Shown here piece by piece: positions 26,356 to 35,009 of a stretch of DNA of 45,162 bases (positions are counted from its first letter, which is position 1; every line of letters starts with the position of its first letter). Source of the stretch: a virus; the IMG/VR virus record IMGVR_UViG_3300044609_001261, positions 1 to 45,162 of that record. One strand, written 5' to 3'. The translations under genes were made by a program, and so were the position numbers. The notes under the pieces were generated by a model. It did not search any database, was not told the origin of the DNA, and worked only from the letters and a program-made list of their open reading frames with translations.

Positions 26356-27662
26356 TAAAACGTTGCTCCGCTAGGGACATTAGTTTGTTTAATTTCATTG
26401 CCACCAAATGAATCTCTTGTTAATGTAGCAATAGTTCTAAGTTCAGTTCTATTTAGGATGGTATGCTTAACTGAATGAACTATATATCTTCCACTAATTC
26501 TAGTATCTTCTTTAATTCTACCATCTTTACCTTTTTTGGGAGATGGTATCGAAATATTGATTACATATCCTGGCTGCAATTTTAAATCTCCTGGGATTGC
26601 TATTTCTAGTTTGTTATATTCTAAAAAGTAATATCTATAAATTGACTTTTCATAATTTTTATTTACTTCATCTACATGATTTAATTTTTCGATTTCATCA
26701 TTCGATAAATCTTTCCAGCCAAATGTAGATATTGTTGTTGGTCTATAGATTAATCTAGAGGGCTTTAATAATAATTCATTATCTTGAAATGGAGTCATCT
26801 TATTTAAATGACTCATATCTTTCCAGTATGTAGATGCATTTGTATTCCAATTTTGAAAATTTCTATTATTGATATCTACATATAAAGCATTATGTGCGAA
26901 TGCACCATTACGAAGATCATCCAGAATATCAAATGCTTTTGGAGAGGAGTAATTTAGTATTCTATAGTTGTTTAATTCTGTTTTAGATGCTTTAGTATTT
27001 CCCTGAACAAAAGTATATTTTGTTCTTTTATTTGGATATGCATCTGCGTCAAATAGTACATCTAGTGATTTGTAATTATATCCATCAACCGTCTCATAGA
27101 AAAGATATCCCACGGAGGATTTATTTTTTACAGGTACACTTCTTCTTGACATCCAAATTGCAGTATCAAACAATCTCCAATTTGGGACATACATATCAAA
27201 CGGATATAACGTTTCGTCTACATTTTTAAATTGTTTATCAGAAATTGATTTAATTTTTTCTTTCAAAAATACTTCTGCTTTTTTTCCATCAACTCTTTCA
27301 CGAATTCTGGTGTATTCATTATCCAAAACTTCTTTGCTGACTGCATGAATTACATATGCCTGATTTTTTTCTTGCATCACTCGACCATCAATCTTGTGAA
27401 TATAGAAATTTAAGGTGTAATTTGCAGCTAGTGTTGATAATACAAGTTGAATTTGCTCTCTTCCAATCAAAGGTAAAGTTTCAATTAAATTTTCCCCGAT
27501 ATCATTTATAACTAATTGACAGTATATACTCGACGAAATAATACTTTGATAGAAAGTAACTTCATGCACTAACTCTTTAATGTCAAGTTTACTTTGATTG
27601 GCATTTAGTGGGTATAGAAATACAGATTTTAGAGAAAAATCTCCAGTAAATTCTTGATTCAT
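26355..27662 (-). CDS. gp27: Baseplate hub protein, T4 gp27-like
   Basis: Predicted hub component that binds the gp5-like spike and joins the tail tube to the baseplate centre. The N-terminal part (FLYPLNANQSKLDIKELVHEV, then FYQSIISSSIYCQLVINDIG) is of the type seen in cyanophage hub proteins. The C-terminal part (ELRTIATLTRDSFG preceded by IPGDLKLQPGYVINISIP and SGRYIVHSVKH, about residues 355-420) has the loader-domain form shared by gp27, gpD and VgrG. Length is 435 aa against 391 for T4 gp27. The gene overlaps the stop of the 975-aa gene (TAATG) and its own stop overlaps the CP12-like start, so the operon is tightly coupled. Assignment rests on motifs, position and the adjacent gp5-like gene. 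Confidence 0.7.
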   Translation of the reverse strand: MNQEFTGDFSLKSVFLYPLNANQSKLDIKELVHEVTFYQSIISSSIYCQLVINDIGENLIETLPLIGREQIQLVLSTLAANYTLNFYIHKIDGRVMQEKNQAYVIHAVSKEVLDNEYTRIRERVDGKKAEVFLKEKIKSISDKQFKNVDETLYPFDMYVPNWRLFDTAIWMSRRSVPVKNKSSVGYLFYETVDGYNYKSLDVLFDADAYPNKRTKYTFVQGNTKASKTELNNYRILNYSSPKAFDILDDLRNGAFAHNALYVDINNRNFQNWNTNASTYWKDMSHLNKMTPFQDNELLLKPSRLIYRPTTISTFGWKDLSNDEIEKLNHVDEVNKNYEKSIYRYYFLEYNKLEIAIPGDLKLQPGYVINISIPSPKKGKDGRIKEDTRISGRYIVHSVKHTILNRTELRTIATLTRDSFGGNEIKQTNVPSGATF

Positions 27663-30589
27663 TAGAGTCTTGTCTTGAGGTTAAATGCTAGTGAACTATC
27701 TATTGAAGAATATGATCCTGCAGAATAGTCTGGAAATTCCATTGGAGTTATCAGGTTGGTGTTTGTTATTGTACTGGTTTCACCCATCATAATGTATGTA
27801 TCTGAATATGCAGTAACATCTTTAGCTGCTTGAAGATATTGCATACTGTCCTTTTCCATTTGTGCTCCATTAAATTTAGCTGGAGCATTTAGCATTTGAT
27901 ATAATTTTCCAAGACTTTCTGATACTTTAATTGGATCAAATGCTGGTTGCTGATCTTGAGTAGATTCTTCAGCAGGAGCCACCCTATCAGCTTCAACTGT
28001 TGGTGTTTGAGCTGCTGGAGATGTTGCTTGACCAGGAGTTCCACCTTTTCTCAGTAATGAAAACAATCCTTGAGTTAATGGATCAACCTTACCATTTAAA
28101 GTTTCTGCTAAATCTTTTTTTGTAGTGTGTTGTTCTAGGTGTAAATGTGCTCCACCAGATCTTCCTGCACCAGGAGTTTTTGGCACACCTCCACTCATTG
28201 CAATTACAGAATTAGGATTAAAATTTTGGCCCTCTTTTACCCAAGAAGGAATAGAACTTAAATGTGCAAGTCTAGCAATCTTTCCATCAGTTAATTTAAC
28301 ATCCATATATTGACCATATCCACCATTAGCTTCTTTTTCTACACTAGAAGTTCTACTAATTTTCATAAACTGTCCACCCAGCGTAAATGATAATGGAGTT
28401 CCAGACCCAAATGCAATATCTATTCCTTCATGTGCATGTTTTCGGAATGATTCTTTCTTGCCAAATTTACTAGTAATATCTCCTCTAGACACCAATCCAC
28501 CAGTTTGCATTTTAGCATATTTTGAAAATACTTGATTTCCATATGTAATTCTATTTTCATATCCACGATGTCCTGGCCCTTCTCCAGACCTTTCATATTG
28601 AGTTACAAATAAATGTGCAGCTTGCTTAACAGTTTTTGCACTTTTTAATGTTGATAAACTCAATCCGCCATCACCAGTTTCAAGTTCATACCAAACAAAT
28701 TGTAATTGTGCTTCTAAAGTTTCTGGATTCAATCCTTTACTTTGTGCAAATCGTACTAGCTTTGGCCAACGATCTCTAGGATCCCATTGAGCTATTCCTT
28801 TATGTCCAATACTATTTGTAATTGTTGGATCAATATTATGGCCAGCCTCTTGCATGAAGTTTCCAACTAACCCAGCGGCTTGTTCTGCAGTTAATCCTTT
28901 AGATTTCAAATAATTAAATGCCTTCTCTGCATTAGCACTTCCTACAAAATTTCCTGCAGTATCAATAGTTCCATCTGGTTTTTTATTGTTGTCCGTTTTT
29001 TTAGCATCATCTCCTTTACGAAAATCTAGATTAATAATATTGTTTAAAATGTCTGCAAGAATTTCACGAATACTATTGCCAGAATTATATCTTGCTTTCT
29101 TGGATTCTTCTGATGATTCTTTCTTTGCAATGATATTTAAAGTTTTATTTAAACCAAGTACCTTTTCAAGTTCTGAATTAGATGATTGTTTCTTTTGATC
29201 AATATTAAACCCACCTGTTGTTCCACCAATATCAGATGTAAATACATAGTTACTTGACCCAAATTCTCTTCGATAAGGTGATAATAAACTAGATGCATAT
29301 GGACGAATTGTTAATCCAATAGGTCCTAGAGAAGATATGACAGCATCAATTCCACCAATCATTGATGATGCAACTACTCCCATTGGAGCATTTAATATAG
29401 TTCCATCGTAAATTCTAGGCAGAGGAATAACTGCTTCTGGTCCTGCTTCACCAATAAGTGCTCTAGTTGGTTTTGTTACAATACCACCCACTGCAAGAGC
29501 AGGTTCTTTTGGTGCAGAAAATCCTTTAAAGAATCCATATAATTTATCTCCAACCCAATCACCAAGTAATCCACCAACAACAGCACCAAACGTAGCACCA
29601 GCAGCAGTACCAGCAAATGGAATGATACTTCCCAATGCTCCCATGACAATACCACCAAGCCATGCACCAATGCTAGATCCAATCAGCTTTACTGCAGCTT
29701 TATCTAATGGATCTCCAAAAATTAAGTTGAGTCCAAATCCAATAACAGGACCAATCAATGGAATTTTACTTAATGGTTTTGCTGCAGTTTTTATTGTATT
29801 TTTTACAAATTCTTTTGCTGAAGCAAATCCAATTTTAGATGCTACTTTTACTAAAAACTTTAATGCGTTCTTTCCAAATACTTTAAGTATAACTCGTTTA
29901 ATTCCAGCAGTTAATCCTTTGGAGTATGCAATATAGAGATTAGGATTTAATAATTTAAATATTCCTTCAATAGCTTCTTTGAATTTACCAGATCCTATAT
30001 TTGTAAATACCTTACCAATATTCTTACCATTCTTTAGAATCCATACAATGTCTTTTAATATCTGACCTGGAAATAATAACCTCTTGATGATAAAAAATCC
30101 ACCAATAGCTTTAAATACACCAAAGAATCTTTCTAAAAAACTACCTCCAAATAAAACACTATGCAATCCACCAAGAACACCTTCGACACCAACTCCAGCA
30201 ATAAAGTCAATCATCTTGAATATATTTTTCATTGCCTTAGCAATTTCACCAAGAGACTTTACATTCTCTGGCTGAGACATCCATTGAAGAATTTTATAAC
30301 CTGCAAAAAATTTGAACAAGTCATATAATTTCACTGACTGTTCTTTTATCTGACCTCTTACAGCACCCGAAACTGTATTAGACTTTTTTAATTCTTGACT
30401 TCTTTCTCTTTCTGATATTGCAGATCTATCAATTGAATCTTTTTGAATTTTGAAAAACTTTTTCTCTAAGTCAAAATTTTTCTTTTTCTGTAATACTAAA
30501 TTTTTGGCAACACCATGTACCGTCTTCAACTCCTTGAGACGAGTATTACCTATAATGGAAGCTGGTCTAACTGGTGTTAAATTTTCCAT
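27662..30589 (-). CDS. Tape-measure-like tail protein with lysozyme-like and M23 peptidase domains
   Basis: Residues 1-360 are helical and hydrophobic in parts (GYKILQWMSQP near 97; Gly/Ala-rich membrane-like stretch near 285-345). GGIVTKPTRALIGEAGPEAV at 368-387 is a motif of tape-measure C-termini. Residues about 550-690 resemble the phage tail lysozyme family (YLKSKGLTAEQAAGLVGNF, E581 in MQEAGH, KGIAQWD), which cuts glycan. Residues 703-840 form an M23 zinc peptidase with HEGID (H720, D724), LAHLS (H776) and HLH (815-817), expected to cut cross-links. A short motif SLGKLYQMLNAP is at 892-903. It probably sits in the tail lumen and opens the cell wall during DNA entry. It starts 2 bases after its paralogue and may serve as the tape measure. 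Confidence 0.75.
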   Translation of the reverse strand: MENLTPVRPASIIGNTRLKELKTVHGVAKNLVLQKKKNFDLEKKFFKIQKDSIDRSAISERERSQELKKSNTVSGAVRGQIKEQSVKLYDLFKFFAGYKILQWMSQPENVKSLGEIAKAMKNIFKMIDFIAGVGVEGVLGGLHSVLFGGSFLERFFGVFKAIGGFFIIKRLLFPGQILKDIVWILKNGKNIGKVFTNIGSGKFKEAIEGIFKLLNPNLYIAYSKGLTAGIKRVILKVFGKNALKFLVKVASKIGFASAKEFVKNTIKTAAKPLSKIPLIGPVIGFGLNLIFGDPLDKAAVKLIGSSIGAWLGGIVMGALGSIIPFAGTAAGATFGAVVGGLLGDWVGDKLYGFFKGFSAPKEPALAVGGIVTKPTRALIGEAGPEAVIPLPRIYDGTILNAPMGVVASSMIGGIDAVISSLGPIGLTIRPYASSLLSPYRREFGSSNYVFTSDIGGTTGGFNIDQKKQSSNSELEKVLGLNKTLNIIAKKESSEESKKARYNSGNSIREILADILNNIINLDFRKGDDAKKTDNNKKPDGTIDTAGNFVGSANAEKAFNYLKSKGLTAEQAAGLVGNFMQEAGHNIDPTITNSIGHKGIAQWDPRDRWPKLVRFAQSKGLNPETLEAQLQFVWYELETGDGGLSLSTLKSAKTVKQAAHLFVTQYERSGEGPGHRGYENRITYGNQVFSKYAKMQTGGLVSRGDITSKFGKKESFRKHAHEGIDIAFGSGTPLSFTLGGQFMKISRTSSVEKEANGGYGQYMDVKLTDGKIARLAHLSSIPSWVKEGQNFNPNSVIAMSGGVPKTPGAGRSGGAHLHLEQHTTKKDLAETLNGKVDPLTQGLFSLLRKGGTPGQATSPAAQTPTVEADRVAPAEESTQDQQPAFDPIKVSESLGKLYQMLNAPAKFNGAQMEKDSMQYLQAAKDVTAYSDTYIMMGETSTITNTNLITPMEFPDYSAGSYSSIDSSLAFNLKTRL

Positions 30590-30590
30590 T

Positions 30591-33260
30591 TTATGGTGCT
30601 ATCGGATAGTTAATTAATGGATTTGGTGGAGTTGTATTTCCAAGTGCCGCAGTCATTGGTTGTGAAGTTGTTTGAGTAATAGTTTTATTTGGTTGTCCCA
30701 ATGTAATAACATTACCACCAGTTTTGGATTGGCTTTTAGATTGACTTTGAAGTTGTAAATTTTCTTTTTGAACTCTCTGTAAATTTCCAGATGATTGTGA
30801 AACAGTCTGGGTTATTTTTGGTGGTGTTGCTGGCTTTGGTGTTGAAGTTAATTCTTGATTAGGTGAAGGAGCATTCAACATCTTGAATAATTTCCCAAGA
30901 CTTTCTGCAGCAGATGTTGCCATTTCTGCAGTAAATTCTGATGAAGTATTATTTTGATCTTGATTTGTCGTATCTGTAGCTGCAGTTGAAGATGTTTGCC
31001 CACTTACAGAGGGAGTAGCTTTACCTTTTGTCCATGCAATTGGTTCTACTTTTCCCCCAATTGTTCCATTCCAAGAACTTCCAATCTCCCAATGTAAGTG
31101 TGGACCAGTACTTCTTCCCCCACCATGTTGATGTCCACTAGAAGCAACTTGTTCTCCAGTTTTTATCAAATCTCCTTGTTTCTTGGCATACGAACTGACA
31201 TGACCAAACAATGAGAATATTCCATTATTACTTTTTAGAACAATATAATTTCCCCATCCACCAGGATTTTTATTAATCTCATGAACTTTCCCATCAAAAG
31301 GAGATAGTAATGGAGTTCCCACAGGCATTGGTAGATCTCTTGCTGTATACCCATGTTCAAGACCTCTACCCATCACAACTCCTTTAGAGTCTTCTGGAAC
31401 TGGTGCCCAACCACCGCCAAGTTTCAGAAACTTTCTAGTTGCCACTGGACCACCACTACCAAATCTAGGATATAATCCATAATTAATTTGATCGAGAACC
31501 TTTGGTCCTCCCATTCCATTAACTGCATTTTTATTCAACACATATTCGTTTGGTTCTAATAGTGCAGGAATCTTATCTCCGACTCCTTGGCCGGGAACCG
31601 CACCAGAGGTAGAAGATCGGTCAAATATTGGAGAGATGGAAGGGGCAGCAGATGGAGCCGCTGGAGCTGCTGGTGGAGCTGCTGGAGTGGCTGCTGGTCC
31701 AGGTGGAGTGGTAGCTGGGGGTACAGTGGCAGACTTATTCTGTTTACTTATCAAAGCACCCAATATATTTCCAAGTAATCCTTTGACAGTTGTATCTCTA
31801 CTAGCATTGAAATCTTCACCTTTCTGTTGATTTACATTGATCTCTTGTTTTCCAAATAATTCTGCAACATCTCCCATTCCAGACGTTACCATCTCACCAA
31901 CACCACCAACAAAGCCAGTCATTCCAGACACTAATCCAGGTGGCAATCCAAATCCAGATGCAATATTAGAAATCAAAGGTTTTATAAATTGACCAATTCC
32001 AGGAATTTTTCCTACAGTAGATGAAATTAATGCTAATATTCCAGCTCCAATAATCTTAAAAGGTAACGTCAATAACTTCATGAATTTAGGAATTACCTTA
32101 TTGGTAGCTGCCTTGAATCCATCAATTCCAAATGAACCCAATTTGTCTAATGGAAGGATTGCTTCTGGACCAGCCTCACCGACGATAGCTTCAGTTGGCT
32201 TTGTTACAATTCCACCCTTTGCTAACTTTGGAAGTTCTTCTTGAGACTTACTTCCTGTAAATAATGACTTGATAGATCCACCAATTTTTGCACCGATGTC
32301 AGTAGCAATATCTATTCCTGGGAATAGAGTTTTTAAAATATTTTTGCCAATATTTGATAGAGATTCTTTTGCCTTTTCTCCTAAATCTCCTTGCCCAGTT
32401 TTATCAGATTCTGCAGATGTTTCTGCTGGAGATTCTACTGGCTTTTTAGTATCTACTGATTGCTCAGCTTGACCTTGAAGTTCTTTTTGTCCACCAAGCA
32501 ATCCATTGGTTAAAACAGATTCTAGAAAATTTGGTAATAGATTAGTTAAAAATTTTACTGTCAGTGAAATTGCATTTGGAATGCTTGCAAAGACTGATGT
32601 TACATCCTCTATAGTTTTAAGTAGCCATTCTACTCCACCACCAATCCATCTGAAACTAAAAAACTCTGCAACCTTACCAACAAAATCAAATACCCCATTG
32701 ATTACCTTAGAAGTAACCGTAATGGTTTTCATTAATACATCAACACCAAATTCAGTGACTGCACTAATGAATTTAAATATCTTTGTGAATAAAGTTACAA
32801 AGTCCTGAATTTTTTTTGAGTTTGCTGGATTTGATGCCCACTGAAGAACTTTGTATCCAACAAAAAATTTCAAGAGATTCTTAAAGAATGCTCCAATCAT
32901 AGAAAGGTCAGACTTTGCCTTTTCTACAATAGAATTTGCATTTGATTTTTTTCCACCTCTTCCTCTACCTTCTTCTTGTAATCTTTCTCTTTCTCTAGAT
33001 TTTCTTCTTTGTTCTTCCTTTGCAAAGTTTAAAATTCTATCTCCAAGAAAACTATAATACTTTTTCTCGATGGCAAGTAAAGTTCCAAGGGTTTTTCTAA
33101 TCTGACCTAATTCTTCAATCTCTTTTTTGGCGATAATATTCCCAGACAATCTAATAGGTCTCCCCCCAGTAATAGCTGATGGATTTACTGGGGAAAGTCT
33201 TCTAGATCGGAGAGACTCAGCAAATGATTGCATTGATGTCTGGGTTTGTCTTTCTGCCAT
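30591..33260 (-). CDS. Tape-measure-like tail protein with M23 peptidase domain
   Basis: A paralogue of the next gene downstream. Residues 85-105 are very basic (RRKSRERERLQEEGRGRGGKK), followed by a helix with GYKVLQW near 135. GGIVTKPTEAIVGEAGPEAI at 349-368 is a tape-measure motif. A Pro/Ala-rich linker lies at 512-542. EPNEYVLNKNAVNGMGG (569-585) is another tape-measure-type motif. Residues about 628-740 form an M23 domain with HLHWE (721-725) and FGHVS (H687); the first ligand motif (HGYTARD from H636) is spaced unusually, so the metal site may be altered. SLGKLFKMLNAP at 788-799 is shared with the paralogue. It is the first gene after the gp26 frameshift extension (4-base gap), the usual place of the tape measure. 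Its ribosome site is weak, suggesting coupling. Confidence 0.75.
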   Translation of the reverse strand: MAERQTQTSMQSFAESLRSRRLSPVNPSAITGGRPIRLSGNIIAKKEIEELGQIRKTLGTLLAIEKKYYSFLGDRILNFAKEEQRRKSRERERLQEEGRGRGGKKSNANSIVEKAKSDLSMIGAFFKNLLKFFVGYKVLQWASNPANSKKIQDFVTLFTKIFKFISAVTEFGVDVLMKTITVTSKVINGVFDFVGKVAEFFSFRWIGGGVEWLLKTIEDVTSVFASIPNAISLTVKFLTNLLPNFLESVLTNGLLGGQKELQGQAEQSVDTKKPVESPAETSAESDKTGQGDLGEKAKESLSNIGKNILKTLFPGIDIATDIGAKIGGSIKSLFTGSKSQEELPKLAKGGIVTKPTEAIVGEAGPEAILPLDKLGSFGIDGFKAATNKVIPKFMKLLTLPFKIIGAGILALISSTVGKIPGIGQFIKPLISNIASGFGLPPGLVSGMTGFVGGVGEMVTSGMGDVAELFGKQEINVNQQKGEDFNASRDTTVKGLLGNILGALISKQNKSATVPPATTPPGPAATPAAPPAAPAAPSAAPSISPIFDRSSTSGAVPGQGVGDKIPALLEPNEYVLNKNAVNGMGGPKVLDQINYGLYPRFGSGGPVATRKFLKLGGGWAPVPEDSKGVVMGRGLEHGYTARDLPMPVGTPLLSPFDGKVHEINKNPGGWGNYIVLKSNNGIFSLFGHVSSYAKKQGDLIKTGEQVASSGHQHGGGRSTGPHLHWEIGSSWNGTIGGKVEPIAWTKGKATPSVSGQTSSTAATDTTNQDQNNTSSEFTAEMATSAAESLGKLFKMLNAPSPNQELTSTPKPATPPKITQTVSQSSGNLQRVQKENLQLQSQSKSQSKTGGNVITLGQPNKTITQTTSQPMTAALGNTTPPNPLINYPIAP

Positions 33261-33264
33261 TTAC

Positions 33265-33459
33265 TTACAACGATGTTGTTGTTTTATTTTTGAGATTCTC
33301 TTCTTCAATGTAATCTACCAACATTTGCACATATATTTCTCTTTCCCACGGAAGCATATTTTCAATTTCTGAAAGAGCCCACTTATGATGTTGAAGTAAT
33401 ATAAAATTAATTCTGAAGAAATTTTCTAGCGACTCATGTGCTAGGGCTATGCGAAAAAA
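33265..33459 (-). CDS. gp26 frameshift extension (tail-chaperone-like, start-less frame)
   Basis: A 62-codon frame in the -1 register relative to gp26, running from the slippery site to a TAA at 33265 and filling the gap before the next gene. It has no usable start before its conserved-looking core, so it can only be read by frameshifting. The encoded extension includes LLQHHKWALSEIENMLPWER and YVQMLVDYIEEEN; the W-x-L-x-E-I-E-x-M-L-P-W-E-R pattern resembles short phage tail-assembly proteins encoded just upstream of the tape measure. The fusion product would be 235 residues of gp26 plus 62, 297 aa in all. Predicted role is the longer form of a tail-assembly chaperone, parallel to lambda gpG-T. 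The frame and lengths are seen directly; the function is inferred. Confidence 0.75.
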   Translation of the reverse strand, partial: FFRIALAHESLENFFRINFILLQHHKWALSEIENMLPWEREIYVQMLVDYIEEENLKNKTTTSL

Positions 33460-33474
33460 GACGCAAGACCCTCC
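33426..33474 (-). promoter_or_regulatory. Programmed -1 ribosomal frameshift cassette in gp26
   Basis: On the minus strand in order: SD-like GGAGGG (33469-33474), 9 nt, slippery heptamer T TTT TTC in the gp26 frame (33453-33459), 8 nt, and a hairpin CTAGC / 9-nt loop / GCTAG (33426-33444). The gp26 stop codon (33447-33449) follows the heptamer by one codon. All three parts of a bacterial -1 frameshift signal of the dnaX type are present at usual spacing. Confidence 0.8.
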
Positions 33475-34157
33475 AATACAACATCACTTTCAACATTAGT
33501 TACTGGGTTAGTAACTTTAACCGTATGAGATAGCTTTGGCATAGTCTCAAAGAATTTTTGAATTAACAGAAACTGAGCCGTGTCTAAACTATCTAGAAAC
33601 TCATTGATTTCCTTTTTACTGAAACTCTTTGTTTCATATACATCTTCACCTTCTACAACTTGTTCAATACAAGATGCTGCAATTTCAAATACATCTTCAG
33701 TTTTTGCATTGGCAGTAAAGTTTGTTTTAACAAACATCTCCATGCTAGGATATTTCATTACAACAGAAATAGTATCATTCAATGAAATAATTCTGGAGTG
33801 ATCTTCAAATTTTTGAACTTTAATATCTTCAACATTGAGTTCAAGAGGAACTGTAGTTTCTCCATCATCTGGACATGTAATATTTAAATCAATCTGTTCT
33901 CCAACAGACTTTGCACGGATATTGAGAAACAAATACTCAATATCAAATACAGCAAGATCATCAACTTTAATTTTAGATATAATGCAGTTCTTCAGAATAG
34001 TCTTGACTGCATTGATCATTTGATTTTCATCTTCAGATTCCATAGCCATGAGAAGAACTTTCTCTTCTTTTACTAGGAATGGTCTGTATTTAATTAATTG
34101 ATCAGTTGATGGTAAACGCAATTCATACGTCGGAGTTACAATTTTTGGTAAAGGCAT
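33447..34157 (-). CDS. gp26: gp26-like baseplate hub/tail assembly protein
   Basis: 236-aa protein of the T4 gp26 type, recognised by MPLPKIVTPTYELRLPST and by YRPFLVKEEKVLLMAMESED near residues 25-44. In T4, gp26 belongs to the group of hub-assembly genes. The rest is acidic and mixed alpha/beta (DLNITCPDDGETTVPLELN near 106-124; KKEINEFLDSLDTAQFLLI near 180-198). The frame ends SFFA-stop, directly on a frameshift signal that adds 62 residues in a fraction of products. A late-promoter-like CTAAATA precedes it; no strong Shine-Dalgarno site is visible before ATG. The position between gp54 and the tape-measure-like genes fits the tail-chaperone position of other tailed phages. Confidence 0.85.
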   Translation of the reverse strand: MPLPKIVTPTYELRLPSTDQLIKYRPFLVKEEKVLLMAMESEDENQMINAVKTILKNCIISKIKVDDLAVFDIEYLFLNIRAKSVGEQIDLNITCPDDGETTVPLELNVEDIKVQKFEDHSRIISLNDTISVVMKYPSMEMFVKTNFTANAKTEDVFEIAASCIEQVVEGEDVYETKSFSKKEINEFLDSLDTAQFLLIQKFFETMPKLSHTVKVTNPVTNVESDVVLEGLASFFA

Positions 34158-34184: not shown

Positions 34185-34191
34185 TATTTAG
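34185..34191 (-). promoter_or_regulatory. Possible late promoter for gp26
   Basis: CTAAATA on the minus strand overlaps the gp54 stop codon. It differs from TATAAATA at the first conserved positions, but spacing predicts a start on A at about 34179 with a 22-nt leader, like the better late promoters in the window. Confidence 0.4.
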
Positions 34192-35009
34192 GTGATGTCC
34201 GCCCAAGATGTTGTTATTTTAGTAGAGTTTTCTCCAGTCTGAGATGATGGTACTGCAAGTTCGTATTCAAAAGTAACCTGAACTTTTACTAATTGTGATG
34301 ATCCACTGGATAATGGTATTGACGATATTGTTGTTGGGAATGCATTTCTCAATCTAACTGAGTATGTTGCAAATGGTTTACCAAACCCAGAAATATACTT
34401 AAGTCCAGAGTCTGGAATAATTTGATCACTGCTATAAAAATTAGATTGAGAGTCTAATTGTATAGTTTTTAATCTAGTATTTTTTCTACTACTTCTATGT
34501 CTTTCAAGTTTAATTACAATTATATCACAACAATAATCATCTCTATATCTAGTTCTACCCAAATCAACACTTTGATTCATATTAATGTTTGTGTTTATGG
34601 TATTTGTACCTGATAATGAAACCCCAGTATAAATGTAATTGCCCCAGGAATCAAAAATTCTTCTAATTTCAGAATCTGCATCCAAAATAAATGAAATAGT
34701 AATCTCATTGTTTACAATTCCATATGCATATTTCATCGTAGGAGTATTTGTAATTCTATAATCTCCTGTAGAAATAGAATACCCAGGGATAGAACACTCA
34801 TCTGCATACACTCTCACAAGTCCTTGCATAAAAGATTCATCATTAGTATTTACATCTCCAGTCATGCCAAGGGTAAATAAATTTTTTAATAATTTACTGC
34901 TATTGACAAGTTCAAATTGAATATCATAAAAATTACTTAGAGAAAAACCATATCTCTCTACATATCCTCTAAATTCTTTAAAATTTTTAGGAATCGTATT
35001 AATACTCAT
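34188..35009 (-). CDS. gp54: gp54-like baseplate tail-tube initiator
   Basis: Predicted to cap the baseplate and start polymerisation of the tail tube. The protein is 273 aa (T4 gp54 is about 320) and has the layout of the tail-tube/gp54 family: an N-terminal helix and strand (FSLSNFYDIQFELV), a central domain (ADECSIPGYSISTGDYRITN, then NNEITISFILDADSEIRRIF) and a C-terminal part FGKPFATYSVRLRNAFPTTI followed by VQVTFEYELA, which matches the usual tube-protein end. It overlaps the upstream 187-aa gene by ATGA. Its partner gp48 is encoded nearby on the other strand. It could be confused with the tube protein gp19, but the length and place near gp48 favour gp54. Confidence 0.75.
   Translation of the reverse strand: MSINTIPKNFKEFRGYVERYGFSLSNFYDIQFELVNSSKLLKNLFTLGMTGDVNTNDESFMQGLVRVYADECSIPGYSISTGDYRITNTPTMKYAYGIVNNEITISFILDADSEIRRIFDSWGNYIYTGVSLSGTNTINTNINMNQSVDLGRTRYRDDYCCDIIVIKLERHRSSRKNTRLKTIQLDSQSNFYSSDQIIPDSGLKYISGFGKPFATYSVRLRNAFPTTISSIPLSSGSSQLVKVQVTFEYELAVPSSQTGENSTKITTSWADIT

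Follow-up and report, generated by a model that had tools for sequence, protein, structure and literature searches.

A -1 slip site in gp26 and a gp51-type extension point to a short and long tail chaperone pair in a T4-like phage

According to a passage of PMC5009743 (2016), the G-T frameshift is found conserved widely among long-tailed phages, 'except T4'. As outlined there for lambda gpG/gpGT, the long form is of low abundance and neither product is present in virions; in the mechanism model given in the same passage, short and long forms bind the tape measure protein and the domain added to the long form recruits the tube. For T4-like phages, Vladimirov, Gautam and Davidson (2022), as cited by others, described poly-T slippery sites in tail assembly chaperone (TAC) genes, and a sentence of PMC10885494 (2024) cites that work for T4-like phages that, in place of a frameshift, have one short and one long copy. 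Chaperone frameshifting is therefore already published for viruses related to the one analysed here, and the gp26 gene of IMG/VR virus record IMGVR_UViG_3300044609_001261 (45,162 bases, the whole of which is called the window below) is one more well-supported case. In our reading, to which we give a probability of about 0.92, gp26 is the short tail assembly chaperone, and a -1 slip at T_TTT_TTC would give a long form with a gp51-type domain.

The gp26 gene (33447..34157; all window features named here are on the minus strand) encodes 236 residues, the putative short chaperone form (TAC-N), and matches PF12322 (T4_baseplate, E 6.4e-74) and phrog_150 (E 5e-82). Its 3' end reads TTG GAG GGT CTT GCG TCT TTT TTC GCA TAG, in which the heptamer T_TTT_TTC (33453..33459) stands in the phase that a tandem -1 slip requires and the stop lies one codon past it. 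Starting with the final heptamer base, the -1 frame stays open for 62 codons (RIALAHESLENFFRINFILLQHHKWALSEIENMLPWEREIYVQMLVDYIEEENLK...) and then reaches TAA (33265..33453, the putative TAC-C), 4 bases before the ATG of the next gene (33260); the earliest ATG, GTG or TTG in this frame comes at codon 32 of the extension, halfway through the conserved domain. GGAGGG, a Shine-Dalgarno-like motif (33469..33474), lies 9 nucleotides upstream of the heptamer, and a 5-bp inverted repeat CTAGC/GCTAG with a 9-nucleotide loop (33444-33440/33430-33426) begins 8 nucleotides past it. Every letter and distance given in a preliminary description made from the sequence alone holds; it had also noted that the -1 frame has no usable start and ends just short of the next gene. 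That description called the frame hidden; in annotated relatives it is often given as a separate gene 51.

The slip site is conserved to a degree that the protein sequence would not demand. The relatives taken from IMG/VR were the best 80 of at least 591 confirmed, 52-100% identical, and they comprise 66 unique gp26 genes. T_TTT_TTC with the extension in -1 was found at all 85 loci read (these 80, P-SSM2, S-PM2, S-BM3, S-WAM1 and the window), so that the alignment of junctions proposed in the preliminary description as a check came out in favour of both a conserved slippery site and a conserved -1 frame. The heptamer is kept in 66/66 unique genes, Phe 234 being TTT and Phe 235 TTC in every one, whereas seven other conserved Phe columns of gp26 mix the two codons (TTT:TTC 28:38, 38:28 and 61:5, for example); the residue ahead of the Phe pair varies (Ser, Ala, Asn, Asp), and its third base is always T. 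Because these two codons and the preceding T are invariant while the other Phe columns are mixed, the site is under selection at the level of the nucleotides. Within the 25 mechanically called open reading frames (ORFs) of the window with at least 100 residues there are 23 Phe-Phe pairs, three of them written TTT TTC, and the only one of these preceded by T is that of gp26.

The -1 product, too, shows signs of constraint. Conservation of the protein sets in with the very residue that follows the slip, which in the window's clade lies ahead of every start codon. The ratio of nonsynonymous to synonymous substitution rates (dN/dS), calculated against L001, a fetched copy whose gp26 is identical to that of the window, and restricted to 62-residue extensions (28 rows), was 0.04-0.18 for ten relatives and 0.37 for the distant L078, and fell to 0 in two whose changes are all synonymous; it was not computable for 14 rows in which synonymous sites are saturated. 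The remaining two frames over the same stretch contain on average 5.4 and 6.5 stops. Purifying selection on the extension is what these values indicate. The extension matches phrog_634, 'baseplate hub assembly catalyst' (the T4 gp51 family), at E 2.8e-25, and also the far end of phrog_150 (the gp26 family) at E 2.1e-5. With a PF12322 domain followed by a gp51-type C-terminal domain, gp26 and its extension together belong with T4 gp26/gp51.

In T4 itself, PF12322 is matched by both gp26 (8.8e-64) and gp51 (3.9e-52), and the two proteins align to each other at BLASTP E 2e-6 (a single comparison). T4 gp51 spans positions 13-280 of the 282 of phrog_150 and 2-103 of the 121 of phrog_634; T4 gp26 ends at phrog_150 position 235. 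The extension profile aligns to residues 209-242 of T4 gp51 (hhalign E 0.00082, probability 24; hmmsearch E 0.00072) and gave no alignment with T4 gp26. On this evidence T4 gp26 and gp51 are paralogues of one family, gp51 being the long form, since it has the gp26-type domain and the extension, and gp26 the short one, since it ends before the extension. T4 has these as two genes on opposite strands, in contrast to the single gene with a slip site of the window phage. T4 gene 26 (L081:3803-3838, -) showed no slip site, its Phe pair being TTC TTT and its -1 frame closed, a sequence consistent with slipping having been lost once genes 26 and 51 supplied both forms. Given the paralogy, the extension in gp51 and the missing slip site in T4 gene 26, frameshifting would give phages of the window's type the short and the long form for which T4 has a gene each. 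The 2022 abstract of Vladimirov et al. reportedly names T4 genes 26 and 51. On a practical matter, gp26/gp51 in most genomes read would be a single gene yielding two products, one short and one long, and not two baseplate hub genes, so that the annotation of hundreds of T4-like genomes would need correcting; gp26 finds matches in 688 phage records at E<=0.001, and the extension in 599 at a loose E<=10, with at least 80% of its length covered in 569 of the latter. A pair of protein forms that a large part of the family makes by frameshifting, and T4 from separate paralogous genes, would represent a clean exchange of recoding for paralogues.

In the mechanism that we propose, most ribosomes would stop at TAG and yield the 236-residue gp26, while a minority would slip by -1 at U_UUU_UUC, with the P site and the A site each occupied by tRNA-Phe, bypass the gp26 stop and append the 62-residue helical gp51-type domain to give a long form of 297 residues. 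If the pair works as lambda G/GT does, the tape measure protein would be bound by many short copies and a few long ones, and tube subunits would be recruited through the added domain of the long form; the slipping itself, its rate, these roles and the nature of the downstream genes as tape measures we infer. As in lambda, the slippery site lies at the 3' end of the upstream gene and the downstream frame lacks a start of its own, save for the possible early starts in some relatives taken up below. The lambda site, which we take to be G_GGA_AAG, differs from T_TTT_TTC, and gp26 differs from gpG in being larger, with further domains, and in that no sequence similarity between the two was seen here. 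The preliminary description had proposed that gp26 and its extension are the T4-type version of the G/GT pair, which would reassign gp26 as a tail chaperone. That proposal is supported by the invariant, phase-locked heptamer, by conservation of the -1 protein from its first codon, by the gp51 homology and the T4 paralogy, by a predicted chaperone-like fold of the N-terminal domain and by the gene order.

The arrangement extends well beyond the cyanophage-like relatives. In a survey of 20 named phages, four of them already among the 85 loci, T_TTT_TTC with an open -1 frame was found in 15 (including Vibrio ValKK3, Aeromonas PX29 and AS-szw, Acidovorax ACP17, Stenotrophomonas Bhz51, Pseudomonas Astolliot and Agrobacterium Atu_ph07) and T_TTT_TTT with an open -1 frame in two (HTVC008M and Melnitz-3); 16 of the 20 phages gave a match of the extension profile in the -1 frame (E<=0.003). 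A second survey took in 46 further loci, namely 44 public genome contigs and two IMG/VR contigs close to ValKK3, the only loci that a scan of IMG/VR with ValKK3 gp26 returned. Once L135 (a run of N) and L149 (a contig end) had been left out, all 44 assessable loci had the extension in -1, behind T_TTT_TTC (30), T_TTT_TTT (11), T_TTT_TTA (2) or G_TTT_TTT (1). The slip junction is unchanged even where the gp26 stop comes 7 codons later (L125, L139 and phage Mosig). Many of the 44 genome-contig matches are probably phage contigs binned with their hosts or with other organisms. T4-like gp26 loci were seen in records with cellular titles, a Heimdallarchaeota chromosome (CP070695.1, L135) and a Nonlabens xiamenensis contig (L117).

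Several points weigh against this reading. The frameshift itself is deduced from sequence, and that the frame is open says little by itself, since 47 of 5000 dinucleotide shuffles are open as well. No conserved hairpin stimulator appears to accompany the slip site, and the full GGAGG is present in just 17/80 relatives (GAGG in 62/80). A start codon falls within extension codons 1-4 in 36/80 relatives, where reinitiation could act. Among the named phages, Vibrio D503 and Klebsiella ackermannvirus T751 lack a canonical heptamer, though their -1 frame is open, and the extension profile found no significant match in Bhz51 (E 11), D503 (E 5.8) and Atu_ph07 (no hit); Bhz51 and Atu_ph07 do have the heptamer and an open -1 frame, and in all three the -1 frame resembles the extension by eye only. 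In S-SCSM1 (L101, junction at 1480-1516) the heptamer is present, but the -1 frame is shut after 10 codons and the extension, matched by the profile, lies in +1 with an ATG, which reflects either a sequence error or a real loss or decoupling. The two gp26 relatives with an extension-like open -1 frame behind no canonical heptamer are D503 (L094, 2205-2220) and T751 (L096, 2235-2245).

The predicted structure of gp26 carries a similar caution. Residues 1-94 of its AlphaFold2 (AF2) model, with a predicted local distance difference test score (pLDDT) of 87.4, match the HK97 tail assembly chaperone 2ob9 (Z 7.1), YqbN 3klu (6.5) and rbstp2171 3fgx (6.4), all below 8 and so in the range where common arrangements occur; the next rows follow at Z 4.4 and 4.2. 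We take YqbN and 3fgx to be members of the phage chaperone family, and the match is suggestive of a tail-chaperone-like fold in the modelled N-terminal domain, to which gp26, compared with these three proteins, adds further beta and helical parts. The gp26 sequence gave no significant match in the PDB (best E 0.1, unrelated) and its model none at E<=0.001 with Foldseek against the PDB; the same tool found 60 viral predicted structures at E<=0.001, and many of the named ones among 50 rows are labelled baseplate hub. The model of the extension (pLDDT 80.4) has a short helix flanked by two long ones; for it Foldseek returned no match at E<=0.001 and VIA-align a best Z of 3.6, with no chaperone among 12 rows. 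By sequence, the extension gave 17 PDB matches at E 0.06-0.92, mostly to coiled-coil envelope proteins, which we regard as chance.

As for stimulators, the 5-bp hairpin of the preliminary description has the letters and position claimed for it, but does not behave as a conserved element. Its folding z was -0.89, with 35/200 shuffles as good, and on 31 distinct rows 61.9% of cells could pair, compared with 61.2% in shuffles, 169/500 of which were as high. Versions of the hairpin slid along the alignment pair less (23-43%), as expected because the stem was taken from one of the sequences. A consensus fold of the junction set contained no pairs, and the exact stem is retained in near relatives and not across the set. 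We have rejected it as a conserved stimulator and consider it probably incidental. The Shine-Dalgarno-like GAGG, whose presence upstream of the heptamer is partly due to conserved Glu-Gly codons, is a possible stimulator.

The early start codons bear on the possibility that gene 51 stands by itself, as a small gene that overlaps the end of gp26 or comes after it and that ribosomes reach through a start codon of its own or through coupled reinitiation. Such a gene is annotated in P-SSM2, S-PM2, HTVC008M, S-CRM01, P-HM2 and others, and ATG, GTG or TTG among the first four extension codons of many relatives, the TAATG stop-start of D503 and the ATG of the +1 frame in S-SCSM1 would suit it. Indeed, given its TAATG, reinitiation may have taken over from slipping in D503. 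The preliminary description had named relatives with a lost second frame or with a start of their own as evidence against frameshifting; S-SCSM1 has its frame closed and the 36 relatives have early starts, but in the other 44 of the 80 the first possible start lies at codon 8 or later, and reinitiation is therefore excluded as a general route, though not in every relative. Moreover, the annotated start is 30 codons beyond the gp26 stop in P-HM2 and 17 in HTVC008M, and would in both remove conserved residues, a separate gene leaves the invariant heptamer and its fixed phase unexplained, the gp26 stop shifts among phages while the junction between slip site and extension does not, and in T4 gp51 the extension is fused to a full gp26-type domain. 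We consider a separate gene very unlikely.

The same long protein might instead arise by slippage of RNA polymerase on the run of six T, a run that is lengthened to seven in 13 of the relatives read (two named phages and 11 further loci). Most relatives retain exactly T6C in the X_XXY_YYZ phase, which matters for a tandem tRNA slip, and six T are short for efficient transcript slippage, so that we hold this route to be highly improbable. That gp26 is a structural subunit of the baseplate hub, and the extension a decaying remnant or a homopolymer sequencing error, is scarcely credible: the database label of gp26 is 'baseplate hub' and a passage of PMC3004832 cites genetic work that puts gp26 in the T4 hub, but a table in the same paper gives gp26 and gp51 as hub assembly chaperones, the gp26 fold is chaperone-like, the arrangement recurs in 80 fetched contigs and in isolates, and the extension has the low dN/dS in ten relatives reported above. 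Ribosomal slipping at T_TTT_TTC remains the reading that we prefer.

A parallel to this frameshift may exist in bacterial contractile-tail clusters. Five of 31 extension sequences weakly match DUF6760 (best E 0.0094), a family present in 2/198, 15/201, 18/194 and 5/299 genomes of four sampled phyla, those of genomes titled Nonlabens, Anaerolineae, Prochlorococcus and Rhodobacteraceae, with two of the last five above the cut-off. Forty-one contractile-tail loci were read, L200 having been left out as a match below the cut-off, and in 37 of them (L160, L162-L178, L180-L198) DUF6760 lies in the -1 frame of the upstream gene, which has 101-210 residues by mechanical starts and typically about 120-140. 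The other four are in-frame fusions (L161, L199), a broken upstream frame (L179) and a locus where none was found (L201). All 37 have an in-frame G-run or lambda-like site (GGGGGAA 13, GGGGGAG 13, GGGGGGG 9, GGGGGGA 1, GGGAAAG 1). No start codon stands between the run and DUF6760 in 23/37; a start is present in the other 14, in which coupled reinitiation may act instead. A gp19-type tube gene was found in 7/7 loci tested (L160, L161, L176, L177, L190, L198, L199) and a sheath gene in 2/2 (L176, L177), and the short gene matches a 'tail assembly chaperone' phrog in L198 (E 1.8e-7) and L177 (1e-4). In these clusters the proposed -1 shift would take place at G_GGG_GAR or G_GGG_GGN (once G_GGA_AAG), in a chaperone-like gene that follows the tube gene, and would add DUF6760 as a C-terminal domain.

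The link between the two systems comes from two in-frame ORFs, that of L161 with T4_baseplate (2.3e-9) and DUF6760 (1.4e-6) and that of L199 with T4_baseplate (3.4e-5, just under the cut-off) and DUF6760 (4.8e-4, below it); direct profile comparisons with hhalign were weak for the extension against DUF6760 (E 0.0032, probability 9.9) and not significant for gp26 against the short gene of the clusters. We lean towards the view that the T4-like short and long pair is one branch of a wider device that also operates in bacterial contractile-tail clusters, by a -1 shift at a G-run into DUF6760. A literature search, in its result lists, turned up no report of frameshifting in contractile injection systems, which we infer these clusters to be rather than other phage-tail-like clusters.

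Around the junction in the window, a tail tube protein gene lies upstream (34188..35009; PF23849 E 4.4e-14, phrog_45 E 8.1e-31). Downstream follow two genes to which we assign a tape-measure-like role, one of 889 residues with an M23 peptidase domain (30591..33260; PF01551 E 8.2e-19), for which tape measure phrogs are among the weaker matches, mostly across the peptidase domain, and one of 975 residues with lysozyme and M23 domains (27662..30589; PF18013 E 2.7e-31, PF01551 E 2.8e-8). They are possibly duplicated tape measures, of which perhaps only one sets tail length. With these presumed roles, the order tube, gp26, long tape-measure-like genes fits the position of a lambda G/GT-type chaperone. 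By eye, the products of 27662-30589 and 30591-33260 have a common N-terminal motif, KFF.GYK.LQW.
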